Source of the DNA: Catenuloplanes atrovinosus | GTDB taxonomy: Bacteria; Actinomycetota; Actinomycetes; Mycobacteriales; Micromonosporaceae | Length of the DNA stretch: 64,000 nt | Assembly: GCF_031458235.1 (NCBI RefSeq) | Contig: NZ_JAVDYB010000001.1 | Location: forward strand, 2,377,001 to 2,441,000 | Direction: 5' to 3' | Shown here: one piece after another, positions 3-53,282 of the stretch | Position numbering within the stretch: position 1 is the stretch's first letter | Layout of the letters: each line of letters opens with the position of its first letter | Notes under the pieces: generated by a model | Databases searched by the model: none | What the model was told of the DNA's origin: nothing | The model's input: the letters and a program-made list of their open reading frames with translations, nothing else | Program-made: the position numbers and the translations under genes

Positions 3-761
3 ATCGGCGTGGGGGACCGGCTGGCGGTCCGCGGCCCGTCCGGCACGTTCCACGCCGGCGCCCGCCCGCCGGCCGATGCGGTGCTGGTGGCCGCGGGCAG
101 CGGCATCACGCCGATGATGAGCATGATCCGCACGTGGCTGGCGGACCGGGACGGCGACGGCCGGATCGCGCTGCTCTACAGCAGCCGCGCCGAGGAGGAG
201 ATCATCTTCGGTGACGAACTGGCCCGGCTGGCCGCGTCGGCGCCCGGCCGGCTGACGGTCACGCACGTGCTGACGCGGCGGGACGGGCGGCTGGACGCGG
301 ACGGGGTGCGCCGCTGGGTGACCGCGCTGTCCCCGGCGGCGGGCGCGCACTACTTCGTCTGCGGGCCGGAGCCGCTGATGGAGGCGGTCCGCCAGGTGCT
401 GTCCGCATTGGACGTGCCGGACGCGCTGGTGCACCACGAGCGCTACACCAGCGCGCCGGAGGACGCTGCCGTGACCACCGTGCCGCAGAAGATGATCGTC
501 GAGGAGGACGGGCGGACGATCGGCACCGTGGTGGTCGAGCCGGGGCAGACCCTGCTCGACGCGGGACTCGCGGCGGGGCTGCCGATGCCGTACTCCTGCA
601 CGGTCGGCACCTGCGGCGAGTGCATGGTGCGGCTGCGCGGCGGCGAGGTCACCCAGGGCCGGCCGAACTGCCTCACGCCGGAACAGCGCGCGGACGGGTA
701 CGTCCTGGCGTGTGTGGGATGCCCACTGTCGACGGTCACGGTGGACGTCGCGGGACATTGA
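3..761 (+). CDS. Ferredoxin reductase-like electron-transfer protein, 5' truncated
   Basis: The frame is open from the window edge, so the N-terminal flavin-binding part lies upstream. An NAD-binding half is visible, with the AAGSGITPMMSM nucleotide loop and a YFVCGPEPLMEAV motif typical of the ferredoxin-NADP reductase superfamily. A plant-type 2Fe-2S domain follows, whose cysteines are spaced CX4CX2C (CTVGTCGEC), with the fourth in LACVG. This arrangement matches PaaE or oxygenase-reductase proteins that pass electrons from NAD(P)H through flavin and the iron-sulfur cluster to an oxygenase or desaturase. The GTG at 9 is probably internal, because family homology continues up to the window edge. 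The partner enzyme is not visible. The domain call is firm; the specific partner is unknown. Confidence 0.85.
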   Translation: MGVGDRLAVRGPSGTFHAGARPPADAVLVAAGSGITPMMSMIRTWLADRDGDGRIALLYSSRAEEEIIFGDELARLAASAPGRLTVTHVLTRRDGRLDADGVRRWVTALSPAAGAHYFVCGPEPLMEAVRQVLSALDVPDALVHHERYTSAPEDAAVTTVPQKMIVEEDGRTIGTVVVEPGQTLLDAGLAAGLPMPYSCTVGTCGECMVRLRGGEVTQGRPNCLTPEQRADGYVLACVGCPLSTVTVDVAGH

Positions 762-837
762 TGAGCGACGACTCAACGTACGCAGACTTCATCTCGTAGT
801 GGTGTGGGCACCGAAGGTCACGGGTATGGTCGGGATC

Positions 838-2034
838 ATGTCCGAACTGCTCGCGATCTCGGATGCCGCGGAGCACGTCAGCGGCATCTGCTTCAAGACC
901 GGGCCGCCCCGGCGGATCGGCGTCGAACTCGAATGGACCGTCCACCCCACCGAATCCCCGCACACCCCGCTCGATCTCGACCGGCTGCGGGAGGCGCTCG
1001 GGCCTCACGCACCCGCCACGCTCGGTAATCCCACGCCGGAGAAGCTGCCCGGCGGCGGCACCGTCACCGTCGAACCCGGCGGGCAGGTCGAGCTCTCCTC
1101 CGCCCCGGCCGCCACGCTCGCGGACCTGCACACCGCCGTCGAGGAGGGCCGCGCCCACCTCGCCGGCCGTCTCGCCCGGTCCGGCCTCGCGCTCGGCGAC
1201 GCCGGCCTCGATCCCCACCGGCCGCCGCGCCGGCTGCTGCACACCCCCCGGTACGGGGCCATGCAGCGCCTCTTCGACCGGCGCGGCGACCACGGGCGGA
1301 TCATGATGTGCAGTACCGCCGGGCTCCAGGTCTGCCTGGACGCGGGCCGGCCGGAGGACGTGGCCCGGCGCTGGGCCGCGGTGCACGAGCTCGGCCCGCC
1401 GCTGCTGGCCGCGTTCGCCACCTCCCGGTTCCGGGCCGGCCGGGACACCGGCTGGGCCAGCGGGCGGATGGCGGCCTGGTTCAGCATGGAGCCGGGGCTC
1501 ACCCGCCCGGTCGGCACCGGCGCCGACCCGGCACGCCTCTGGGCCGCGTACGCGCTCGCCGCGCCGCTGCTCTGCCTGCGCCGCGACGACGGCGACTGGG
1601 ACGCGCCGCCCGGGCTGACCTTCGCCGGCTGGATCCGCGGCCGGCTGCCCCGCCCACCCACGGTCGAGGACCTGGAGTACCACCTCGGCACGCTGTTCCC
1701 GCCGGTCCGGCCGCGCGGCTACCTGGAGATCCGCTACCTGGACGCGCAGCCCGGCGACGAGTGGATCGCACCGGCCGCGGTCCTGGCCGCGCTGCTCGAC
1801 GACGCGGTCCTCGACCGGGCCCGGGACCTGGCCGCACCGGCCCGCGACCGCTGGCTCGACGCGGCCCGCGAGGGCCTCGCCCATCCCGAGATCGGCACCG
1901 CCGCGTCCCACCTGCTGGACCTGGCCTGCCGGCACCTCTACCGCACCGGCCTGCCCGCGCACCTGCGCGACCGGGTGGCCGGCATCGCCGGGCGGCGCCT
2001 GTCCGCCCAACACCGTAAGGAGCCTCAGACATGA
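838..2034 (+). CDS. egtA: EgtA, glutamate-cysteine ligase of ergothioneine biosynthesis
   Basis: A 398-residue protein of the actinobacterial EgtA/GCS2-like glutamate-cysteine ligase family. It makes gamma-glutamylcysteine, the sulfur donor used by EgtB, in the cytoplasm. The N-terminal GVELEW and VTVEPGGQVELSS motifs are the glutamate-binding and metal-binding signatures of the family. The start at 838 gives MSELLAIS. The frame extends upstream to 712, but that part overlaps the preceding gene and looks non-coding. It is the first gene of egtABCD. Its TGA overlaps the ATG of a 25-codon repeat ORF (2031-2108) placed between it and egtB, and an AAGGAG just upstream would originally have served egtB. 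Identity is strongly supported by gene order. Confidence 0.9.
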   Translation: MSELLAISDAAEHVSGICFKTGPPRRIGVELEWTVHPTESPHTPLDLDRLREALGPHAPATLGNPTPEKLPGGGTVTVEPGGQVELSSAPAATLADLHTAVEEGRAHLAGRLARSGLALGDAGLDPHRPPRRLLHTPRYGAMQRLFDRRGDHGRIMMCSTAGLQVCLDAGRPEDVARRWAAVHELGPPLLAAFATSRFRAGRDTGWASGRMAAWFSMEPGLTRPVGTGADPARLWAAYALAAPLLCLRRDDGDWDAPPGLTFAGWIRGRLPRPPTVEDLEYHLGTLFPPVRPRGYLEIRYLDAQPGDEWIAPAAVLAALLDDAVLDRARDLAAPARDRWLDAAREGLAHPEIGTAASHLLDLACRHLYRTGLPAHLRDRVAGIAGRRLSAQHRKEPQT

Positions 2035-2108
2035 GCGAGCTTGCGAGTGAATCATCGGCTCAGCGCCGACCACGCCGGAACCGCGACGCCGAGGGGAGCC
2101 CGGCATGA
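2031..2108 (+). repeat. 74-bp micro-ORF repeat, copy 1 (egtA-egtB junction)
   Basis: The repeat unit runs from an ATG at 2031 to the next ATG at 2105 (74 nt). It is read through as a 25-codon frame beginning MSELASESSAQRRPRRNR and ending EGSPA, with its TGA at 2106-2108 overlapping the egtB start as ATGA. Its own ATG overlaps the egtA stop and is preceded by AAGGAG. Inside, AGGGGAG sits just upstream of the egtB ATG and supplies its ribosome binding site. The first 50 or so bases are nearly identical in the copies at 5777, 42273 and 42199 (minus). They include a TCGGC...GCCGA hairpin and codons that are rare in this genome (CTT, TCA, CGA, CCA). Translation is plausible but unproven. Confidence 0.85.
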
Positions 2109-3406
2109 CGCGAGACCTGCGTTTGACTGTCGCCGCCGAGCTGGAGCGCACCCGCGCCCGCACCGAGGTGCTGACCGAGGCGGTGGACGACGCCGACCTG
2201 ATCCGGCAGCACTCGCCACTGATGTCGCCGCTGGTCTGGGACCTGGCGCACGTCGGCAACCAGGAGGAGCTATGGCTGGTCCGCGACGTGGGCGGCCGGG
2301 ACCCGGTCCGGCGCGACATCGACGAGCTCTACGACGCGTTCAAGCACCCGCGCCGCGACCGCCCCGCGCTGCCGCTGCTCAACCCGGCGGAGGCCCGCGC
2401 CTACGTCCGGCAGGTCCGGGACAAGGCGATGGACATCCTGGACACGGTACGCATGGACGGGCGCCCGCTGGTGGCGGACGGCTTCGCGTTCGGCATGATC
2501 GTCCAGCACGAGCAGCAGCACGACGAGACCATGCTCGCCACCCATCAGCTCCGGGCCGGCGCGCCGGTGCTGACCGCGCCCGCGCCGCCGCCCGCCACCG
2601 CCGCACCCCGCGGCGAGGTGCTGATCCCGGCCGGGCCGTTCACCATGGGCACGGACGTGGAGCCGTGGGCGCTGGACAACGAGCGGCCCGCGCACCGGGT
2701 GGACCTGCCCGCGTACTTCATCGACGCCGCGCCGGTCACCAACGCGGCGTACGCGGAGTTCATCGCCGCCGGTGGCTACGACGACCCGCGCTGGTGGGGC
2801 GAGGACGGGTGGGCGCACCGCACCACGGCCGGGCTGACCGCGCCCGCGCACTGGAACCGGGACGGTGAGACGTACACCCGGTTCGGCCGCGTCGAGCGGA
2901 TCGTGCCGGACGAGCCGGTGGTGCACGTCTGCTGGTACGAGGCGCGCGCCTACGCCCGCTGGGCCGGGCGCCGCCTGCCGACCGAGGCGGAGTGGGAGAA
3001 GGCGGCCCGGTTCGACCCGGCGACCGGCCGGTCCCGCCGCTTCCCGTGGGGCGACGACCCGCCGGAGTCCCGGCACGCCAACCTCGGCCAGCGGCACCTG
3101 AGCCCGGCCCCGGCCGGCGCCTACCCGGACGGCGCGTCGCCGCTGGGCGTGCACCAGCTGATCGGCGACGTGTGGGAGTGGACGGACTCGGACTTCCACG
3201 GCTATCCGGGCTTCCGGGCGTTCCCGTACCGGGAGTATTCCGAGGTCTTCTTCGGCCCGGACTACAAGGTGCTGCGCGGCGGGTCGTTCGGCACGGACGC
3301 GGCCGCCTGCCGGGGCACGTTCCGCAACTGGGACTACCCGATCCGGCGGCAGATCTTCAGCGGCTTCCGGTGCGCGCGCGACGCCCGCCCGGAGGACCTC
3401 GGCTGA
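2105..3406 (+). CDS. egtB: EgtB, ergothioneine sulfoxide synthase
   Basis: A 433-residue non-heme iron enzyme. It joins gamma-glutamylcysteine to trimethylhistidine (hercynine) with O2, giving the sulfoxide intermediate. The N-terminal DinB-like helical domain carries the iron-binding HX3HXE motif (H135, H139, E141). The C-terminal half is a formylglycine-generating-enzyme/sulfatase-modifying fold with the typical IPAGPFTMG entry, RLPTEAEWEKAAR and GGSFG motifs. The start at 2105 lies just after AGGGGAG, which is supplied by the upstream repeat, and overlaps that repeat's micro-ORF stop. The stop overlaps the egtC start by one base (TGATG), so the two genes are translationally coupled. Length and motifs match characterised EgtB proteins. 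Confidence 0.95.
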   Translation: MTRDLRLTVAAELERTRARTEVLTEAVDDADLIRQHSPLMSPLVWDLAHVGNQEELWLVRDVGGRDPVRRDIDELYDAFKHPRRDRPALPLLNPAEARAYVRQVRDKAMDILDTVRMDGRPLVADGFAFGMIVQHEQQHDETMLATHQLRAGAPVLTAPAPPPATAAPRGEVLIPAGPFTMGTDVEPWALDNERPAHRVDLPAYFIDAAPVTNAAYAEFIAAGGYDDPRWWGEDGWAHRTTAGLTAPAHWNRDGETYTRFGRVERIVPDEPVVHVCWYEARAYARWAGRRLPTEAEWEKAARFDPATGRSRRFPWGDDPPESRHANLGQRHLSPAPAGAYPDGASPLGVHQLIGDVWEWTDSDFHGYPGFRAFPYREYSEVFFGPDYKVLRGGSFGTDAAACRGTFRNWDYPIRRQIFSGFRCARDARPEDLG

Positions 3407-4155
3407 TGTGCCGCCACCTGGCGTACCTCGGCCCGGCCGTACCGTTGCGGGAACTGCTCTTCGACGCGCCGCACGCGCTGTGCCGTCAGGCGTGGGCGCC
3501 GCGCGACATGCGGGGCGGCGGCACGATCAACGTGGACGGTTTCGGCGTCGGCTGGTTCCCGGACGGCGCCGCGGAGCCGGTGCGCTATCGGCGGGCCACG
3601 CCGATCTGGTCGGACCCGTCGCTCGCGGCCCTGGCCGGGGCGACGGCGTCCGGCGCGGTGCTCGCGGCCGTGCGCTCCGCGACCGTCGGCATGCCGGTGA
3701 CCGAGGCCGCCGCCGCGCCGTTCACGGACGGGCCGTGGCTGTTCAGTCACAACGGGAAGGTCACCGGCTGGCCGGACTCGATGACGGCGCTGGCCGAACG
3801 GCTGCCGGTGCGCGACCTGCTCACGCTGGACGCGCCGACCGACTCCGCGCTGCTCTGGGCGCTGGTGCGGCAGCGGTTGCGCGCCGGTGCCGATCCGGGC
3901 GCGGCGCTGCGCGAGACGGCCCGCGCGGTCAGCGCGGCCGCTCCTGACTCACGACTCAACCTACTGCTGACCGACGGCCGCCGCGTCGCCGCGACGACCC
4001 GGGGCCACGCGCTGTCCTACGTGGTACGCCGGGACGGGGTGACGGTCAGCTCCGAGCCGCTCGACGACGACCCCGGCTGGGAAGAGGTGCCGCCCGGCCA
4101 CCTGCTCGTCGCGACCCGATCCGCGCTGGACCTGACATCGCTGGAGGCATCGTGA
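3406..4155 (+). CDS. egtC: EgtC, gamma-glutamyl hercynylcysteine sulfoxide amidohydrolase
   Basis: A 249-residue class II glutamine amidotransferase-like (Ntn) hydrolase. It removes the gamma-glutamyl group from the EgtB product. The protein begins MCRHLAYLG, so Cys2 becomes the N-terminal nucleophile after methionine removal. The NVDGFGVGW and LFSHNGKV motifs are those of the Ntn amidotransferase fold. It overlaps egtB by one base and egtD by four bases (GTGA), so the whole block is one translation-coupled operon. Motifs and position between egtB and egtD make the assignment secure. Confidence 0.95.
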   Translation: MCRHLAYLGPAVPLRELLFDAPHALCRQAWAPRDMRGGGTINVDGFGVGWFPDGAAEPVRYRRATPIWSDPSLAALAGATASGAVLAAVRSATVGMPVTEAAAAPFTDGPWLFSHNGKVTGWPDSMTALAERLPVRDLLTLDAPTDSALLWALVRQRLRAGADPGAALRETARAVSAAAPDSRLNLLLTDGRRVAATTRGHALSYVVRRDGVTVSSEPLDDDPGWEEVPPGHLLVATRSALDLTSLEAS

Positions 4156-5484: not shown

Positions 5485-5703
5485 TCAGTTCGGGCCGGTC
5501 GGTCCGGTGAAGTCGGTGCGCAGCGCGCGGTCGTTCCCGCCGCGCTCGCGGTCGACGTCCTCGATGCCCGCGTCGTTACCGGTCGGGTCGTCGGTCTGGC
5601 CGTCCGCGGGCGACGTGGCGACGGCGGCGGCCAGCTCGGACAGCGGCAGCCGCTCCTCGTCCCGCCAGACCCCGTCCGGCCGCTCCTCAGCTGATGTACT
5701 CAT
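5485..5703 (-). CDS. Small acidic hypothetical protein behind a micro-ORF repeat
   Basis: A 72-residue acidic, probably disordered protein beginning MSTSAEERPDG and rich in Asp, Glu, Thr and Gly, with no recognisable domain. The start at 5703 is supported by GGAGGAGAG a few bases upstream. It overlaps the TGA of a 25-codon repeat ORF (5700-5777), so translation is probably coupled to that leader. It is transcribed divergently from the DUF5709 gene at 5851. The reading frame is plausible because of its ribosome binding site and composition. The function is unknown. Confidence 0.55.
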   Translation of the reverse strand: MSTSAEERPDGVWRDEERLPLSELAAAVATSPADGQTDDPTGNDAGIEDVDRERGGNDRALRTDFTGPTGPN

Positions 5704-5777
5704 GCCGCGCTCTCCTCCATGTATCCGTTCCGGCGTGGTCGGCGCTGAGCCGCTGATTCGCTCGCAAGCTCGCTCAT
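5700..5777 (-). repeat. 74-bp micro-ORF repeat, copy 2 (leader of a small gene)
   Basis: On the minus strand, ATG at 5777 opens a 25-codon frame beginning MSELASESAAQRRPRRN and ending EESAA. Its TGA (5702-5700) overlaps the ATG of the downstream 72-residue gene. This copy diverges from the others only in the variable tail (GYMEESAA), where GGAGGAGAG gives the downstream Shine-Dalgarno sequence. Unlike the other three copies, no gene stop overlaps its ATG, so it forms the 5' leader of the transcript. Copy length (74 nt, ATG to ATG) is identical to that of the other copies. Confidence 0.8.
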
Positions 5778-25821: not shown

Positions 25822-28800
25822 ATGCCGAGGCCGGAACGGCCGTTGGAAGGGCTGGGCGGGCCGGTCGAGCAGTTGGCGGCCGGGCTGCGGGAGTTGCGGG
25901 AGCGGGCGGGCAGGCCGGGTTACCGGCAGATGGCCGCGCGGGTGAACTACTCGGTGGCGACGCTGTCCGCGGCGGCCTCGGGCCGGCGGTTGCCGACGTG
26001 GGAGGTGACGCTGGCCTACGTCACGGCCTGCGGTGGTGACCGGGAGGAGTGGGAGCGGCGCTGGCGGGAGGCCGAGCGGCTGACCACGGCACCGGCCGAG
26101 AACCCCGGCGTGGCGAACGGCCACTGCGCGCCGCCGTACCCGGGGCTGGCGGCGTTCCAGCCGCGGGACGCGGAGCTGTTCTTCGGCCGGGCCGCGCTGG
26201 TCGGTGAGCTGACGCGGCGCTTGCGGGAGCGGCGTTTCCTGGCGGTGTTCGGGCCGTCCGGGGTCGGTAAGTCGTCGGTGGTCCGCGCGGGGCTGGTCCC
26301 GGCGGCCGGCGGGCCGGCCGTGGTGCTGACGCCGGGTGCGCACCCGATGGCGGAGTTGGCCGTGCACCTCGCGCGGCATGCCGGGGTGGCGTGCGGCGGG
26401 CTGCTGGACGAGTTGCGGGCGGACCCGGCGCGGGCATCGCTGCTGGTCCGGCAGGGCATGTGCGGCGTACCCGCGGATGTCGATCTTCTGGTGGTGGTGG
26501 ACCAGTTCGAGGAGGCCTTCGCCACCTGCGCTGACGCGGCCGAGCGGGCGGACTTCGTCGCCGCGTTGCTGGCGATGTGCCAGGCACCGGACGCCCGCGC
26601 CCGGGTGGTGCTGGCCACCCGGGCCGATCACTTCGTCCGGTTCACCGAGCATCCGGCGCTGCTCGCCGCGCTGACGGACGCGCAACTGCTGATCGGCGGG
26701 ATGAGCCCGGCCGAGCTGCGCGAGGCGGTGACCGGACCGGCCGAGCGATGCGGTGCGCGGGTGGAGGGCGCGCTGGTGGCCACGATCGTCGCGGAGGTGA
26801 CCGACCGGCCCGGCGCCCTGCCGCTGGCCGCGCACGCGCTGCGGCAGGCGTGGCACCGCCGCAAGGGCACGATCGTCACGCTGTCCGGGTACGAGGTGGC
26901 CGGTGGCATGGCCGGCGCGGTCGCGCACACGGCGGAGGAGGCGTACGAGCGGCTGTCCGTGCGGGAACGGCACGTGGCGCGGCAGGTGCTGCGGCGGATG
27001 GTCGACGTCGGGGAGGACGGACTGATCACCCGCCGGCGGCTGTACCGGACCGAGCTGGACGCGATCGGCCACGCGCCGGCCGTGGTCGACACGCTGGCGG
27101 CGGCGCGGCTGGTCACCACGGACCGGGACACCGTGGAGATCGCGCACGAGGCGCTGATCCATGCCTGGCCGCGGCTGCGCGGCTGGGTGGAGACCGACCG
27201 TGCCGGGCTGCGCCTGCACCGCCAGCTCACCGAGGCGGCCACGGTCTGGGAGACCCTCGGCCGCGACGACGGCGCGCTGTACCGGGGCGTACGCCTGGCG
27301 ATGACCGCGGAGGCGGCGGACGCGAAGATCATCGACCTGACCGGTACGGAGAGCGCGTTCCTCGAGGCGAGCCTGGCCCTGCGCGACCGCGAGACCCGGC
27401 AGCGGCGGCGGCGCGCCCGGCGGCTGCTGACCGCGCTCACCGCCGTGCTGACCCTGGTTCTCTCCCTCGCCGCCGGCGCGGTCGCCTCCGCGTTGCGCGC
27501 GGAGTCCGAGCGCAGCCGCGCCACCGCCCGCGAACTGGCCGCCGCCGCCCGCGCGGAGCGGATGACCGACCCGGACCTGGCGCTGCTGCTCGCGCTGCGC
27601 GCCTACCGCCTCCACCCGGACGCCGAGACCGAGTCGGTGCTGCGCCAGGCGACGGCGCACTCCCGAACCGTGTCCACGTTCGCCTCGCACGACGCGGAGG
27701 TGCGCTCGATCGACGTGAGCGGCTCCCAGATCGCCAGCGCGGACGCGGACGGCGTGGTGAAGGTGTGGGACACGCAGCGCCGGACGCCGCCGGTCACCGC
27801 GCCCGTCTCCGGTCGCTTCGTCGACTTCGGCCCGGCCGGCATGCTGGCCCTCACCTGCTACAACCCGAGTCTCCGCGCCAGTTCGGTCGTGCTGTGGCGG
27901 CCGGGGGACACGGGCCCGGGCCGCAGGCTGGAACCGCCGGCCCCGGCCGCGCTCTCCCGCGTGGCGTACAGCGAGGACGGCCGGTGGGTCGCCGCGGTCG
28001 CCGACGACGACCGCGTCTACGTCTGGGACACCGCGACCGACGGCGGCCGGACGTCCATCGACTACACCGGCGACGTCGGCGGCCTCGCCTTCGGACCCGA
28101 CGGGCGGCTCGCCGTCGCCTCGGACGACGGCACCGTCCGCGTCTGGAGGGCCGGCACGGCGGCGCCACCCGTGCTGATCCGCCAGGCCGAGGAGACCTAT
28201 CCGTCGTCCGTGGCGTTCAGCCCCGACGGGCGCAGCATCGCGGTCGGCGGCTACGAGAAGGTCAGCGTCTGGTCCGCGGACGGGCGCTCCGGCCCGCGCA
28301 TCTACCTCGGCCCGGAACTCTGGTACACCAGCGTCGCGTTCAGCCCGGACGGGCTCCGGATCGCCGCGGGAACCGCCGAGCGCACCGTGCGGATCTGGAC
28401 CATGTCCGACGGCACGCGCCCACGGGTGCCGCACCGTGCGGACGGCGGTCACGGCACGGCGCTCCGTGGCCACCACGGCACGGTCCGGGACCTGGCGTTC
28501 AGCCCGGACGGCCGGCGCCTGATCTCCGGCAGCGACGACACCACCGTGCGGGTGTGGGACACCACCGCCGAACCCGAGACGATGACGCTCGCCGACGCCG
28601 CGCGGATCAGCGAGGACGGCAGCGTCGTGGCATCCTCCGCCGGCCCCGGTGCGATCTCCGTCTTCCCCGTCCGTACGCCGGGGACCGCGACCATGCTGCG
28701 GGGTGGCCCGCCCGGCCCACTGTCCCTCGCCGTCGGCCCGGGCGGCCGCGGCGTCGCGACCGCGTCCCCCGGCAGCCCGCGGATCCACTGGTGGGACACC

Positions 28801-29520
28801 GCGGGCGCCGGCGACCCGGCCGTGGTCGACTGCGGGAGCGACCCGGCGACGATGAACCCCGACCAGCTCCTGCTCGGCGCCGACGGGCGCACACTCGTCA
28901 CCGACTGCGGGGACAACGAGATCCGGCTGTGGCGGTCGAGCGAACCGCACGACCCCACCGTCATCAGGGGCGACTGGCCGGTCGCCGTCGACGGTGCCGG
29001 CGGGCTGATGGCGGTGCGCGTGTGGCCGCAGGACATGGTGCTGTGGGATCCGGCCGCCGACCGGCTGGTCCGCACCCTGCACGCCCGGGCCGACCAGGCC
29101 CGGTTCAGCCCCGACGGGAGGCTGCTGGCCCTCTCCGGCGACGACGGCACGATCCGCGTGTGGACCGTCGCCGAGGCCGCGGACCCCGTCGTGCTGACCG
29201 GCGCGGTCGGGCGGATCTCCGCGATCGCCTTCAGCCCCGACGGCCGGCTGATCGCCGCCATCGGCACGGACGACGTGCTCCGGATCTGGAACACCGACGG
29301 CAGCGGCGAGCCGCTCACCTTCGACCAGCCGGCCGGGACGCAACAGGTCGCCTTCAGCGCGGACGGACGACAGCTGATCACCCTGCACGGTACGCACCTG
29401 CGCTTCACCCCGTGCGAGGTGTGCGGCCCGGTGGACGAGGTGCTCCGGCTGGCCCAGCAGCGCACCACCCGCGACTTCACCCCCGGCGAACGCACAAGAT
29501 ACCTGCACGACCCCGGATGA
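25822..29520 (+). CDS. HTH-nSTAND1 NTPase-WD40 protein
   Basis: A 1,232-residue multidomain protein. An N-terminal HTH-like domain (about residues 10-75, YRQMAARVNYSVATLSAAASG) is followed by an nSTAND1 NTPase with Walker A GPSGVGKSS (about 144-152) and Walker B LLVVVDQFEEAF (about 222-233). A helical region precedes a single membrane helix (about 535-557) preceded by an Arg-rich stretch. From about residue 620 to 1190 there is a long WD40 array (repeats ending VKVWDT, VRVWRA, VRIWTM, VRVWDT, IRVWTV), probably two propellers. The end CEVCGPVDEVLRLAQ is typical of the family. These STAND proteins are predicted signalling or conflict switches. The ligand is unknown. The start at 25822 is supported by GGGGGTGGG. 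Confidence 0.85.
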   Translation: MPRPERPLEGLGGPVEQLAAGLRELRERAGRPGYRQMAARVNYSVATLSAAASGRRLPTWEVTLAYVTACGGDREEWERRWREAERLTTAPAENPGVANGHCAPPYPGLAAFQPRDAELFFGRAALVGELTRRLRERRFLAVFGPSGVGKSSVVRAGLVPAAGGPAVVLTPGAHPMAELAVHLARHAGVACGGLLDELRADPARASLLVRQGMCGVPADVDLLVVVDQFEEAFATCADAAERADFVAALLAMCQAPDARARVVLATRADHFVRFTEHPALLAALTDAQLLIGGMSPAELREAVTGPAERCGARVEGALVATIVAEVTDRPGALPLAAHALRQAWHRRKGTIVTLSGYEVAGGMAGAVAHTAEEAYERLSVRERHVARQVLRRMVDVGEDGLITRRRLYRTELDAIGHAPAVVDTLAAARLVTTDRDTVEIAHEALIHAWPRLRGWVETDRAGLRLHRQLTEAATVWETLGRDDGALYRGVRLAMTAEAADAKIIDLTGTESAFLEASLALRDRETRQRRRRARRLLTALTAVLTLVLSLAAGAVASALRAESERSRATARELAAAARAERMTDPDLALLLALRAYRLHPDAETESVLRQATAHSRTVSTFASHDAEVRSIDVSGSQIASADADGVVKVWDTQRRTPPVTAPVSGRFVDFGPAGMLALTCYNPSLRASSVVLWRPGDTGPGRRLEPPAPAALSRVAYSEDGRWVAAVADDDRVYVWDTATDGGRTSIDYTGDVGGLAFGPDGRLAVASDDGTVRVWRAGTAAPPVLIRQAEETYPSSVAFSPDGRSIAVGGYEKVSVWSADGRSGPRIYLGPELWYTSVAFSPDGLRIAAGTAERTVRIWTMSDGTRPRVPHRADGGHGTALRGHHGTVRDLAFSPDGRRLISGSDDTTVRVWDTTAEPETMTLADAARISEDGSVVASSAGPGAISVFPVRTPGTATMLRGGPPGPLSLAVGPGGRGVATASPGSPRIHWWDTAGAGDPAVVDCGSDPATMNPDQLLLGADGRTLVTDCGDNEIRLWRSSEPHDPTVIRGDWPVAVDGAGGLMAVRVWPQDMVLWDPAADRLVRTLHARADQARFSPDGRLLALSGDDGTIRVWTVAEAADPVVLTGAVGRISAIAFSPDGRLIAAIGTDDVLRIWNTDGSGEPLTFDQPAGTQQVAFSADGRQLITLHGTHLRFTPCEVCGPVDEVLRLAQQRTTRDFTPGERTRYLHDPG

Positions 29521-36135: not shown

Positions 36136-37530
36136 CTACGGGTTGCGGGCCGTGGCGTACGCGGCCGCGCCGATCAACTCCATCGACACCTTCAGCCGCT
36201 CCAGGCTGATGTTCTTCGCGATCGTGTCCTCGGGGCTGTGGTACGGCGGTTCGAGCGTCGCCGGGGACTCCTCGCCCCGCCAGGAGAAGTTCGCCGCCGC
36301 GATGCCGACCTCCTGGAACGACTGGTGGTCGCTGGACCCGCGCAGCGTGACCGGGGAGATCCGCGGCGTGTAGCCGAGCCGCCCGGCCGCGGCGGCCACC
36401 TCGTCGGTGGCGCGGTTCGCCAGGCCGGTGAAGGAGAGCAGCCAGTAGCGGGTGGCCGGGTCCCAGCTGGTGGCGACCATGTCGTTCTGGAACACCGCGA
36501 CGATCCGGTCCCGCTCGGCCTGCGGTAGCTGTGCCACGTGGTAGCGCGAGCCGACCAGGCCCTGCTCCTCCGAGCCCCACAGCCCGAACCGGAGCGTGGC
36601 GTTGACCGGCAGCCGGCGCAGCACCCGGGCGAGTTCCAGGTTGAGCACGGTGCCGGAGCCGTCGTCGTTCGCCCCGGGCGCGCCGATCACGGAGTCGTAG
36701 TGCGCGCTGACCATGACGACCGGCCCGGTGCCGTCCCCCCTGGTCCGCTCCGCGAGCACGTTGTGCGAGGTCAGGCCGCGGTGCGCGGTGGTGGTGACGG
36801 TCAGCTTCCGCAGCCGTCCCGCGGCCAGCAGCGCGCGCAGCCGGTGCTTCTGCGCCTGCGCCACGCCGACCACCGGGATCGGCACCGGCGTGGTGGCCGA
36901 GCCGGGCAGCGACGGGCTGAACGCGGGCGCGCGGCGCGGGTCCACCAGGTCGGCCGGGAGGAACACCACGGCGGCGGCGCCGCGCGCCACCGCGGTCGCG
37001 ACCACGGTCTCGCGGTCCGCGGCCACGTAGTCGACGAGCAGGATCTTGCGGCGCACGTCCTCCGGGTAGTCGGCGGCGGCGCCCGCGCCCGCGTCCAGCA
37101 CCTCGCCGCGCACGGTCACGTCCAGCCGCGCCTGGCCGGACGCGCCGGCCTGCCAGCACAGGTCGCGGGGCAGCCCGCCGGGGGTGTCCAGGTCGGCGAG
37201 GAACTTGTCCGCCACCGGGAACGGCTGCAGCGTGGTGTCGTATCCGAGCCGGTCGAACACGCCGGCGCAGTAGTCGGCGGCGCGCCGCTCCGAGCGGGTG
37301 CCGCCGATCCGCGGGCCGATCCGCTCGGCGAGCACGCGCAGGTGCTCCAGCGCGCGGCGCGCGGACACCTCGCCGGCGACCTGCCGATCGGCCGGGGTCA
37401 GGGCGGGCGGGCGCACCGAGCCGGGGCGCTGCTCGTCCACGGCCCAGGCGGGTGCGGGCAGCGCGACGCCGGCCGCACCCCCGGCCGCGATCACCAGCAT
37501 CCGGCGGCGGCTGAACGAGGACTGTTCCAC
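36136..37530 (-). CDS. Tat-exported M28 family zinc aminopeptidase, copy 1
   Basis: A 464-residue exported peptidase with a twin-arginine signal SRRRMLVIAAGG (near residues 7-18) and cleavage likely after AWA. It is followed by a protease-associated (PA) insert and the M28 catalytic domain. Zinc ligands fit the co-catalytic pattern: His277 (SAHYDS), Asp289 (GANDDGSG), the Glu pair near 321 (WGSEEQ), Asp in FQNDM and the C-terminal His in EPPYHSPEDT. It should cleave N-terminal residues from peptides outside the cell. A close paralogue with the same layout lies at 51903-53282. A hairpin follows the gene. Confidence 0.9.
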   Translation of the reverse strand: MEQSSFSRRRMLVIAAGGAAGVALPAPAWAVDEQRPGSVRPPALTPADRQVAGEVSARRALEHLRVLAERIGPRIGGTRSERRAADYCAGVFDRLGYDTTLQPFPVADKFLADLDTPGGLPRDLCWQAGASGQARLDVTVRGEVLDAGAGAAADYPEDVRRKILLVDYVAADRETVVATAVARGAAAVVFLPADLVDPRRAPAFSPSLPGSATTPVPIPVVGVAQAQKHRLRALLAAGRLRKLTVTTTAHRGLTSHNVLAERTRGDGTGPVVMVSAHYDSVIGAPGANDDGSGTVLNLELARVLRRLPVNATLRFGLWGSEEQGLVGSRYHVAQLPQAERDRIVAVFQNDMVATSWDPATRYWLLSFTGLANRATDEVAAAAGRLGYTPRISPVTLRGSSDHQSFQEVGIAAANFSWRGEESPATLEPPYHSPEDTIAKNISLERLKVSMELIGAAAYATARNP

Positions 37531-41045: not shown

Positions 41046-42125
41046 TCAGTGGCCGGCCCCGGCCGCCGGGTCGAAGGTGCTGGTCACGGAGACGTACTCG
41101 CCGCGTTCGGCGGACTCGGTGATGGACAGCATCAGGTCGAGTACGTGCAGCGCACGCTCGCCGGAGGCCGCGTGCGGCACGCCGGCCCGGATCGCGCGCG
41201 CCATCTCGGCCACACCCAGGCCGCGCGCGATGCGCGGGTCGTCGTCGCCGGGCAGGTCCGTCCACGTGGTCTCGCCGCGGCGCAGCATCCGGCCGTGGTC
41301 GCGGTGCCGGTTCGGGTCCGGCAGCGCGAGCGTGGCGCCGGTGCCGGTGATCTCCAGCAGGCCGGACCGGCCGAGCGGCGAGTCGAAGCTCATCACCAGC
41401 GTGGCGATCGTTCCGGCGGCGAACTCGATCAGCGCGGTCACGTGCGTCGGCACCTCGACCTCGAACACGGTGCCGGCCTTCGGGCCGCTGCCGACCGTGC
41501 GCTCGGCGAACGCCTGCCGGGCCAGCGCGACCACCCGCGTGGCCGGGCCGAACGCGGCGGTCAGCGCGGTCAGGTAGTACGGGCCGATGTCCAGCAGAGG
41601 GCCGGCACCGCGCTGGTACAGGAACTCGGGGGAGGGGTGCCACGACTCCGGGCCGGGGCCCTGCATGATCAGCAGCGCGCTCTGCGGCGTACCGATGCTG
41701 CCGTCGTTGACCGCGCGCAGCGCGTTCCGCAGGCCCGGCGCGAGGAACGTGTCCGGCGCGCCGCCCACCCGGACGCCCGCGGCGGCCGCGGCGTCGAGCA
41801 TGCGCGCACCGGACGCGCGGTCGAGCGCCAGCGGCTTCTCGTTGTAGACGTGCCGGCCGGCCGCGATCACGTCGGCCGCGACCAGATCGTGCGCGGCGGG
41901 AACGGTCAGGTTGACCACCAGCTCCACGTCCGGGTGCGTGATCGCGGTGGCCACGTCGGTGCCCAGCGGTACGCCGTACAGCGCGGCGACCTCGGCCGCG
42001 CGCGTGACGTCGAGGTCGGCGCAGGCGACCACGCGCACGTCGTCCGGGTAGCCGGCGAGCGTGGGAAGGTACTGGTGACTGACGTTGCCGCAGCCCACCA
42101 CCGCGACCCCGACCGGCCCGCTCAT
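41046..42125 (-). CDS. Gfo/Idh/MocA-family sugar dehydrogenase
   Basis: A 359-residue NAD(P)-dependent oxidoreductase with an N-terminal Rossmann fold (VAVVGCGNVSHQYLPTL), the EKPLALD signature with its catalytic lysine, and the C-terminal Gfo/Idh/MocA domain (PEFLYQRGAGPLLDIGPYYLTAL). These act on sugars or inositols. The ATG at 42125 is preceded by AGGGGAG provided by the repeat and overlaps the TGA of the second tandem micro-ORF. It is the second gene after a sugar isomerase, so both probably act on the same sugar. A small hairpin (41034-41049) spans its stop. Confidence 0.88.
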   Translation of the reverse strand: MSGPVGVAVVGCGNVSHQYLPTLAGYPDDVRVVACADLDVTRAAEVAALYGVPLGTDVATAITHPDVELVVNLTVPAAHDLVAADVIAAGRHVYNEKPLALDRASGARMLDAAAAAGVRVGGAPDTFLAPGLRNALRAVNDGSIGTPQSALLIMQGPGPESWHPSPEFLYQRGAGPLLDIGPYYLTALTAAFGPATRVVALARQAFAERTVGSGPKAGTVFEVEVPTHVTALIEFAAGTIATLVMSFDSPLGRSGLLEITGTGATLALPDPNRHRDHGRMLRRGETTWTDLPGDDDPRIARGLGVAEMARAIRAGVPHAASGERALHVLDLMLSITESAERGEYVSVTSTFDPAAGAGH

Positions 42126-42199
42126 GCCGGACTCCCCTCGAAGCCGCGGTTCCGGCGTGGTCGGCGCTGCGCCGATGATTCGCTCGCAAGCTCGCTCAT
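42122..42199 (-). repeat. 74-bp micro-ORF repeat, copy 4 (adjacent to the dehydrogenase gene)
   Basis: ATG at 42199 (minus) opens a 25-codon frame with MSELASESSAQRRPRRNR followed by GFEGSPA. TGA overlaps the dehydrogenase ATG at 42125. AGGGGAG in the tail serves as its ribosome binding site. Its own ATG overlaps the stop of the preceding tandem copy. The core is identical in sequence to that copy except at one base, near position 48 of the unit. Confidence 0.85.
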
Positions 42200-42273
42200 G
42201 CCGGATTCCCTTTCGCGCTGCGGTTGCGGCGTGGTCGGCGCTGCGCCGATGATTCGCTCGCAAGCTCGCTCAT
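42196..42273 (-). repeat. 74-bp micro-ORF repeat, copy 3 (after the sugar isomerase)
   Basis: ATG at 42273 (minus) overlaps the TGA of the sugar isomerase gene. The frame reads MSELASESSAQRRPRRNR then SAKGNPA, with a stop in ATGA at 42196-42199, where copy 4 begins. It carries AAAGGGAA upstream of that ATG. The two units form a head-to-tail tandem with a 74-base period. Confidence 0.85.
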
Positions 42274-42992
42274 CGCAGCGCCGCCGCGCTCGCGACCAGG
42301 GCGTCGAGCACGTCGCCGGCGCACCGGTCGAGCTCGACGATGCGCTGTGCGCCGGGGGCGGCGGCGAGCGAGGCCGCGATCGGCACCACGCCCTCGCCGA
42401 CCGCGGTCATCGGCCCCTCCACGGTCGCGGGACCGTCCTTGACGTGCAGATATCGGACGCGATCACCGAGGCGGCCGAGCAGCGCGGGCACGTCGGCGCC
42501 GCCGGTCGCGGCCCAGTAGAGGTCGACCTCGAGCAGCACCTCGGGTGCCAGCCGGTCCGCGAGCACCTCCAGCGCGGTCCGGCCGCTGATCAGCGTGCCG
42601 ACCTCCCAGTGATGGTTGTGGTAGCCGACCCGCAGGCCGAGGTCGCCGGCCCGGACCGCGGCCGCGTTCAGGCGGCGGGCGGTGTCCGCGACGGCGTCGG
42701 CGTCCGTGAACCGGTCGGGCGGCAGGTACGCCTGGATCAGCGTGTCCGTGCCGAGCACCGGCGCGGCGGCGAGCGCGGCGTCCGCGTCGTCGCCGAGCAC
42801 GTCGGTGTGCGCGCTGCACACGGACAGCCCGGCCGCGTCGAGGTCGGCGCGGAGCGCGTGCGGGTCGCGGTGTGCCTGGAACGGCTCGACGGCGCCGTAC
42901 CCGGCGTCGGCGAGCGCGCGGAGCGTGCCGGGCCGGTCCTCGGCGAGGCGGTCCCGGACGGTGTAGAGCTGGACGGCGAGGACGCTGCTCAA
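42270..42992 (-). CDS. Sugar phosphate isomerase/epimerase family TIM-barrel protein
   Basis: A 240-residue xylose-isomerase-like TIM barrel (AP_endonuc_2 family), beginning SVLAVQLYTVRDRLAED. It has metal-site-like motifs CSAHTDVLGD, VGYHNHHWEV, LLEVDLYWA and YLHVKDGPA, as in IolE- and IolI-type enzymes. The start is a TTG with a clear GAAGGAG 5 bases upstream. Its TGA forms the ATGA at which the first of two tandem repeats begins, and the Gfo/Idh dehydrogenase follows. Together they suggest catabolism of inositol or a related sugar. The substrate is not determined. Confidence 0.82.
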   Translation of the reverse strand: MSSVLAVQLYTVRDRLAEDRPGTLRALADAGYGAVEPFQAHRDPHALRADLDAAGLSVCSAHTDVLGDDADAALAAAPVLGTDTLIQAYLPPDRFTDADAVADTARRLNAAAVRAGDLGLRVGYHNHHWEVGTLISGRTALEVLADRLAPEVLLEVDLYWAATGGADVPALLGRLGDRVRYLHVKDGPATVEGPMTAVGEGVVPIAASLAAAPGAQRIVELDRCAGDVLDALVASAAALR

Positions 42993-51902: not shown

Positions 51903-53282
51903 TCAGCGGGCCGCGCCGACGGTGGCGGCGGCGATGAGTTCCATGGAGACCTGGAGACGATCGAGGCTGACGTTGTGCGCGATGGTGTCCTGGGGGGTGT
52001 GGTAGGGCGGCTCGAGCTTCCAGGGACCTTCCTCGGAGCGCCAGGAGAAGTTCGCGGCCGCGATGCCGGCATCGTGGAACGACTGGTGGTCGCTCATGCC
52101 GCGCTCGGTCACCGGGGAGAGGTGCGGGGCGTAGCCGAGGCGGCCCGCGGCGGCGGCGACCTCGTCCGTGGCCCGGTTCGGTTCGCCGGTGACGGACAGC
52201 CGCCAGTAGCGGGTGGCCTCGTCCCAGCTGGTGGCGACCATGTCATTCTGGAACACGGCGACGAAACGGTCGCGTTCGGCCTGGGGCAGCTGCGCGACGT
52301 AGTGGGCGGAGCCGACCAGGCCCTCCTCCTCCGCGCCCCACAGCCCGAACCGCAGCGTGGCGTTGACCGGCAGCCGGCGCAGCGCGCGGGCGATCTCCAG
52401 CGTGAGGACGGTGCCGGAGCCGTCGTCGTTCGCGCCCGGGGAGCCGACCACCGTGTCGTAGTGGGCGCAGACCATGACGATCGGTCCGGTGCCGTCCCCG
52501 TGCCGGAGCTCCGCGACCACGTTGTGCGAGGTCAGGTTGCGCTCGGCGGTGGTGGTGACGCGCAGTTCGGGCAGCCGGCCGGCGGCCAGCAGCTCGCGCA
52601 GCCGGTACTTCTGCGCCTGGCCGGCGCCGACCACCGGGATCGGCACGGTCTCGCCCAGCCACGGGCCGAACGCGGGCGCCTGCGAGTGGTCGAAGTGGTC
52701 GAAGTGCCCGAACACGATCGCGGCGGCGCCCCGGGCGACCGCCCGCCCGGCCAGCTCGGCCGGGTCGTCGTTGAACGGGTAGTCGATGATCACGATCTTC
52801 CCGGTGACGTCCTCGGGGTACTCGCCGGCACCGCCCTCGCCCCCGTCGACGACACCGGCGCTCACCGTGGTGCCCAGCACCCCGAACGGCGACGCGCCCA
52901 CCTGCCAGCCCAGGTCCCCGGGGAGCCCGCCGGGCGCGTCGAGGGTGCCCAGATCCTTGTCCATGGCCGGGAACGGCTGCAGCATCGTGTCGTATCCGAG
53001 ACCGTCCAGCACGCCGGCGAGGTGGTCGGCCGCGCGCCGCTCCGCGGCCGTCCCGCCGACCCGCGGGCCGATCTCCTCCGACAGGACCCGCAGGTCCGCC
53101 AGCGCCCGCCGCACCGACAGCTTCGTCATCACCTGCCGGTCCGCGGGCGTGAGCGCGGGCATCCGCACCGATCCGGGCCGCCGGTCACCGACCGCCCAGG
53201 CCGGCGCCGGCATCGCCAGCCCGGCCAGGCCTCCGGCCGCGATCGCGAGCAGCGCGCGCCGATCTACAGAGGATTCGTCCAT
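51903..53282 (-). CDS. Exported M28 family zinc aminopeptidase, copy 2
   Basis: A 459-residue paralogue of the peptidase at 36136. It has an exported N-terminus (DRRALLAIAAGGLAGLAMPAPAWA, with RR consistent with Tat), a PA insert and the same metal-ligand set: CAHYDT, GANDDGSG, WGAEEEGL, FQNDM and EPPYHTPQDT. The start at 53282 is the first with a signal sequence; a longer upstream frame is Arg-rich and non-coding. Much of the sequence is closely parallel to copy 1, including the mature N-terminus and the C-terminal tail. The role is extracellular peptide trimming. No transposon marks flank it. Confidence 0.9.
   Translation of the reverse strand: MDESSVDRRALLAIAAGGLAGLAMPAPAWAVGDRRPGSVRMPALTPADRQVMTKLSVRRALADLRVLSEEIGPRVGGTAAERRAADHLAGVLDGLGYDTMLQPFPAMDKDLGTLDAPGGLPGDLGWQVGASPFGVLGTTVSAGVVDGGEGGAGEYPEDVTGKIVIIDYPFNDDPAELAGRAVARGAAAIVFGHFDHFDHSQAPAFGPWLGETVPIPVVGAGQAQKYRLRELLAAGRLPELRVTTTAERNLTSHNVVAELRHGDGTGPIVMVCAHYDTVVGSPGANDDGSGTVLTLEIARALRRLPVNATLRFGLWGAEEEGLVGSAHYVAQLPQAERDRFVAVFQNDMVATSWDEATRYWRLSVTGEPNRATDEVAAAAGRLGYAPHLSPVTERGMSDHQSFHDAGIAAANFSWRSEEGPWKLEPPYHTPQDTIAHNVSLDRLQVSMELIAAATVGAAR

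Follow-up and report, generated by a model that had tools for sequence, protein, structure and literature searches.

A short repeat at start codons in Catenuloplanes that resembles mycobacterial MIRUs in architecture

Results

The window analysed here is a stretch of 64,000 nt, positions 2377001-2441000 of the 8.9 Mb single-contig genome of Catenuloplanes atrovinosus. It carries four copies of a short repeat, lying at the coordinates and on the strands given in a preliminary description of this DNA (Table 1). As that description also held, each copy runs over 78 nt from ATG to TGA, encodes a 25-codon micro-ORF that reads MSELASES(S/A)AQRRPRRN followed by eight variable residues, and ends in an ATGA. 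A 17-mer from the start of the repeat matched the window four times, in all cases exactly although up to three mismatches were allowed, compared with an expectation of 0.22 matches and with 0 of 100 shuffles that reached four.

Table 1. Repeat copies in the window and the genes next to them
Feature	Position	Strand	Evidence or remark
EgtA (ergothioneine glutamate-cysteine ligase)	712..2034	+	TIGR03444 391 bits vs cut-off 370.8; GCS2; ORF list
Single repeat unit, 25-codon micro-ORF MSELASESSAQRRPRRNRDAEGSPA and stop, ATGA on either end	2031..2108	+	
EgtB, start = right-hand ATGA of unit 2031..2108	2105..3406	+	TIGR03440 445 bits vs cut-off 360
72-aa ORF, start = right-hand ATGA of unit 5700..5777	5485..5703	-	GC3 0.92
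Single repeat unit preceding minus-strand ORF, no overlap with upstream gene	5700..5777	-	
GFO/IDH/MocA-family oxidoreductase, start = right-hand ATGA of two-unit array	41046..42125	-	PF01408, PF22725
Unit 2 of tandem array, spacing 74	42122..42199	-	
Unit 1 of two-unit tandem array; ATGA overlaps stop of upstream ORF (42270-42992, -)	42196..42273	-	

The copy at 2031, where the TGA of egtA (2032-2034) overlaps the ATG of the unit, and the array at 42122-42273 each begin within the stop of the ORF that precedes them, but the copy at 5700-5777 does not. The 72-aa ORF that follows this last copy had no protein family match, and an Rfam search of the whole window returned nothing at gathering scores. 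Both strands of the window together contain ATGA 207 times and DTGA 793 times, so that gene starts make up only a part of the possible NTGA sites. Repetition of other kinds also occurs in the window: two segments of about 1.4 kb (36145-37529 and 51906-53281), some 15.75 kb apart and with pieces 72-86% alike, are probably paralogous genes, and 27966-29163 holds degenerate repeats (FSPDG...VRVW) resembling WD40 blades.

The repeat is abundant in the host genome, which contains its 15-mer core 64 times (0 for the reversed control). BLAST with the 78-mer gave at least 95 matches there (E <= 0.01; 40 of the 273 first-look candidates were scored). Using a profile built on the unit's first 56 nt, we searched 1.6 Mb of stretches from five Catenuloplanes genomes, chosen around matches rather than covering whole genomes, and identified a total of 210 units in 116 arrays of 1-7 units each. 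The C. atrovinosus stretches accounted for 131 units in 54 arrays, and the four congeners (G001-G004) for 79 units in 62 arrays, with 28, 20, 18 and 13 units, respectively; since the queries were taken from the C. atrovinosus genome, the fewer copies in the congeners are partly an effect of the search. The longest array, at G000:C1:2620108-2620620 (G000 is C. atrovinosus), comprises seven units with spacings of 71, 73 and 74.

To describe where these arrays lie, we read each array in frame from its left start, restarting wherever a stop overlapped a start as NTGA, and called an ORF coding-like when it extended at least 60 codons beyond the array with a GC3 of at least 0.8. The arrays lie at gene starts, in the orientation of the gene that follows: a coding-like ORF was reached through NTGA overlaps alone in 95 of 116 arrays and by in-frame fusion in a further 14. 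The remaining 7 did not fit, comprising three broken paths, two arrays fused and one chained into ORFs with a GC3 of 0.71-0.77, and one truncated unit without a start. Along the paths, 156 of 159 micro-ORF stops were NTGA. In 70 of 116 cases the array begins within the TGA of a coding-like ORF lying upstream, the other arrays being located at starts without such an overlap, and both flanking NTGA were ATGA in 89 arrays, while in 8 the first base differed between the two, in either direction. Because copies were found by sequence alone, their location at starts is no artefact of the search; it could be the work either of targeting or of selection. Copies are dispersed, sit at start codons rather than at random positions, and occur in five species, so that two of the outcomes that would have counted against the preliminary description, random placement and absence from other genomes, were not observed.

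Orthologous junctions without the repeat were also found. The egtA-egtB junction has no unit in any of the four congeners; G004, for example, reads ...AAGGAGCCGCAGAC ATGA CCGAC... where the window reads ...AAGGAGCCTCAGAC ATGA-unit-ATGA CGCGAG.... Of nineteen candidate empty alleles, 12 are clean; they represent 9 sites, and every one, read by eye, has a single NTGA start (9 ATGA, 3 GTGA). Four others, at 3 sites, retain a remnant, and three were left out owing to overlapping flank alignments or an ambiguous locus. Such pairs of alleles probably reflect gain of a unit rather than its precise loss. The terminal NTGA persists in remnants of 38, 50 and 56 nt and, where junctions are shared between species, in units of 41, 50, 62, 71 and 74 nt. 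The sites are not all independent, since 16 orthologous groups take in 38 of the 116 arrays. At these 16 junctions the units differ in length by indels and the path is mostly intact; at one of them, three species have lengths of 41, 71 and 74 nt. At 5 of the 16, the tail is of the 74-nt form in one species and of the 77-nt form in another (G000:583261, 6696000, 7247500 and 2936000, and G001:C20:1-20000, each against its orthologues), a difference that a one-time insertion would not explain and that may reflect either repeated insertion at favoured starts or a genome-wide rewriting of tails.

The spacing of neighbouring units provides a further view of how the reading frame is treated. One set of unit lengths is 2 mod 3 by construction, and the evidence on frame was taken from measured spacings instead. 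Among 94 such spacings, 53 were 2 mod 3, 37 were 0 mod 3 and 4 were 1 mod 3. At a spacing of 2 mod 3 the micro-ORF stops and restarts at the junction, whereas at 0 mod 3 the frames merge, so that no internal start is needed. Correspondingly, the NTG was retained at all 53 junctions of the first class and at 8 of 37 in the second, where it was lost in 29 (Fisher p 1e-16 by junction; by array, 29:0 vs 4:12, p 6e-8, with three mixed arrays left out); it was also retained at all 4 junctions at 1 mod 3. The start is kept mainly where a ribosome would need one, with the spacing classes serving as an internal control, and junction and frame alike look kept for ribosome hand-over. Counterexamples are the four spacings at 1 mod 3, which are confined to two arrays, three of them (spacing 73) in the array at 2620108, and the unit at G001:C50:31806, which reads past the next start in a reading frame with a GC3 of 0.72.

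Beyond Catenuloplanes, at least 35 of 121 genomes of the family, including the five above, had BLAST matches at E <= 0.001 with up to seven candidates scored per genome, and 18 units in 15 loci (one per genome, in 15 genomes of other genera) combined an identical or similar head with different tails. EgtB relatives were seen in named genomes of Winogradskya, Actinoplanes and Micromonospora. Across the order, 13 of 298 genomes carry a 23-mer from the head (control, 0): G000 and G001, 8 genomes of one group (f15) and one each of three others (f4, f16 and f8). The 11 genomes other than G000 and G001 have 30 such places, of which 24 were inspected; 17 lead to an ORF via NTGA, 4 are fused to an ORF, including the single f8 copy, 2 stop at a TAG that precedes an ATG by two bases, and 1 reaches the contig end.

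A second sequence family (GTGAGCGCGAGGAGTGAGCC...), with a 59-nt unit of 20 codons and a GTGA joint, was found in 17 of the 121 family genomes. Among the 59 spacings listed for it, 29 were 2 mod 3, 27 were 0 and 3 were 1. The family was seen at L277-L286, L132, L134, L135 and L140, in Micromonospora and related genera, and some of its units are joined in frame to EgtB. Among 14 loci inspected, 5 lead to an ORF via NTGA, 8 end in an in-frame fused unit and 1 (L285) breaks. Each of the named hosts, Micromonospora noduli, M. alfalfae, M. saelicesensis and M. inaquosa, has the repeat at the egtB start. Two further cases differ in kind: in Actinoplanes sp. KI2 the egtB start region itself is tandemly repeated with TGATG joints (L110, ~3870-4001), which may offer a picture of how a unit is born, and in A. 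subtropicus (L129) the repeated stretch lies just upstream, within the end of the preceding gene.

Within C. atrovinosus, the head of the unit (34 nt compared) has an identity of 0.88 between arrays and 0.94 within them, and the tail 0.51 between and 0.78 within. Tails are more alike within than between arrays, which argues that arrays grow locally, in tandem. Units that are alike within a locus and differ between loci, together with the egtB start of KI2 repeated in place, might suggest a minisatellite produced by in-place slippage duplication of start regions and with no dispersal between loci; we consider this reading extremely improbable, given that a similar head occurs at about 94 different junctions (116 arrays less orthologues, in the searched stretches) and in other families, and that the empty alleles lack the head. 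Slippage is thus rejected as the whole explanation, countered by dispersal and empty sites, and survives as the mode of array growth.

Substitutions in the head lean synonymous. The dN/dS-like value of the 74-nt type was 0.36 in frame, vs 1.88 and 0.70 in the shifted frames, and 0.94 for the tail; in the 77-nt type, head and tail gave 0.56 and 0.90, with one shifted-frame control failing. As the copies are related, we treat these values as a hint. The preliminary description judged that conservation appears to act on the DNA; given the synonymous lean, it is not clearly confined to that level. A functional regulatory leader, in which the peptide, codons or promoter of the unit tunes downstream genes and the unit is kept for regulation, would account for the synonymous-leaning head (0.36) and for a head common to several families of the order, and it has a parallel in the MIRUs between senX3 and regX3, which reportedly drive regX3 expression independently of senX3 (PMC4213456). 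We nevertheless regard such a leader as very unlikely: codon 4 varies at its second base, codons 8-9 vary as well, the tails look unconstrained (0.94), the unit is absent from orthologous junctions at 9 sites, and it has no strong common fold.

Two further features had been proposed as general, a Shine-Dalgarno tract in each copy and a conserved palindromic core. Tracts resembling a Shine-Dalgarno sequence are enriched ahead of the right NTGA, though short of universal, being present in 46 of 63 units of the 74-nt type (13.5 in shuffled tails) and in 22 of 23 of the 77-nt type (8.6 in shuffled tails). The palindrome fared less well, as it is imperfect even in the window, where the copy at 2031 has TCGGCT instead of TCGGCG and the copy at 5700-5777 breaks one of five pairs. 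Taking one unit per array, all five core pairs were intact in 26 of 63 units, with 3 double compensations vs 48 broken pairs, and RNAalifold found no strong common fold among the units; a conserved RNA fold or palindrome is accordingly unsupported by these counts and by RNAalifold. By-eye inspection of the unit consensus revealed no terminal inverted repeats.

These results bear on whether the repeat could be a REP sequence or a derivative of IS200/IS605 mobilised by a Y1 transposase. A short, dispersed repeat with a fixed target and without a transposase gene of its own has the look of such an element, but its palindrome is poorly kept, and Y1_Tnp (PF01797) was found in 0 of 5 Catenuloplanes genomes by a search that was positive in 5 of 14 control genomes. 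We rejected a Y1 transposase as the mover on the grounds that it was not found in the genus, and hold this origin to be very unlikely.

Discussion

We propose, with a probability of roughly 0.86, that the repeat is a short, non-autonomous element of the MIRU kind that inserts at start-codon NTGA and forms a micro-ORF from which the ribosome passes to the next gene. A unit measuring some 74 nt, or 77 nt in its sister form, would insert into the NTGA of a start codon and leave an NTGA on either side, such that the unit itself becomes the micro-ORF, with its start at the left NTGA and its stop at the right. A ribosome ending the upstream gene, or loading on a leader, would start the micro-ORF, stop 25 codons on and restart at the original gene. 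Hand-over of this kind would make insertion nearly harmless, and copies would consequently survive at start codons, where arrays would afterwards enlarge by local tandem duplication. Translation of the micro-ORF and re-initiation at its end are what the pattern of starts, stops and spacings predicts. The start-codon copies in five species, the empty alleles and the keeping of frame support the original proposal, in which a mobile or amplified element enters start codons without breaking translational coupling.

A wider reading, which we advance tentatively and regard as somewhat less probable than its converse, is that start-codon parasites occur throughout the order. Their head of about 25 nt would be older than its genera and be recognised by the mover, tails would be co-rewritten in each genome and yield species dialects that differ even where the junctions are orthologous, and the mycobacterial MIRUs and the GTGA family of Micromonospora would be branches. 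On either scope, the occurrence of the same architecture outside mycobacteria, in many copies, with empty alleles and in two sequence families, means that two questions can be put to the test in bacteria other than pathogens: which agent mobilises these units, and whether they insert harmlessly on account of coupling. If the proposal is true, some annotated proteins that start with MSELASES or MSARSEP would be N-terminal fusions to a repeat unit.

Several known systems share parts of this pattern. REP/RAYT elements are short, dispersed and non-autonomous, as is the Catenuloplanes repeat, which differs from them in that no Y1 transposase was found in the five genomes searched, the palindrome is poorly conserved, the copies lie at start codons and the unit is read as an ORF. 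Rickettsia palindromic elements are inserted in frame within genes, and here too a repeat is tolerated in translated regions; in Catenuloplanes, however, units are mostly flanked by stop and start as NTGA, with only 14 of 116 arrays fused in frame.

The closest likeness is to MIRUs, a class that the preliminary description did not name. They reportedly trace to Supply et al. 1997, have DTGA as their insertion target and are widely used in tuberculosis strain typing; to our knowledge, what moves them has not been shown so far. According to published descriptions, MIRUs insert at start codons and contain an ORF with a -4 nt coupling to the gene that follows (PMC12548453), measure 40-100 bp at 41 locations (PMC2734929) and have unit lengths of 77 and 53 bp (PMC2453075); those of the senX3-regX3 region are said to be confined to the M. 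tuberculosis complex and M. leprae (PMC4213456). Small ORFs of mycobacteria that are coupled by RTGA, and whose linkage is kept while the peptide has diverged in one example, likewise tie a small ORF to the next gene; unlike the Catenuloplanes repeat, they are not presented as one repeated sequence, nor does the word MIRU occur, in the portion of PMC4633059 used here.

Searches of the literature, mostly without subscription papers, gave among the papers listed no report of such a class outside mycobacteria and no match to a 21-mer of the repeat, and the term "MIRU-like" matched a Trichodesmium paper. The Catenuloplanes element shares with MIRUs a short unit, single or in tandem, at dozens of loci and at start codons (74/77-nt units, in 54 arrays of 1-7 in the C. 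atrovinosus stretches), and unit lengths of 2 mod 3 (77 and 53 in MIRUs; 74, 77 and others here). It likewise shares an internal ORF with a -4 nt (NTGA) coupling architecture, which as a sequence pattern is present by NTGA alone in 95 of 116 arrays, with 14 fused and 7 neither, and signs of mobility and start-codon insertion, given that each of the 12 clean empty alleles (9 sites) has one NTGA start. It appears to be set apart by in-frame merged arrays (75-nt spacing), species-specific tails, a second sequence family and its host, which is not a mycobacterium, so that we file it as MIRU-like rather than as a MIRU, the likeness being one of architecture and not of compared sequence. The kind of element is already known from MIRUs; the class outside mycobacteria, with its common head and lineage-specific tails, and the Micromonospora family appear to be new. 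Judged by its architecture, the repeat is an element of the MIRU kind in another branch of the order.
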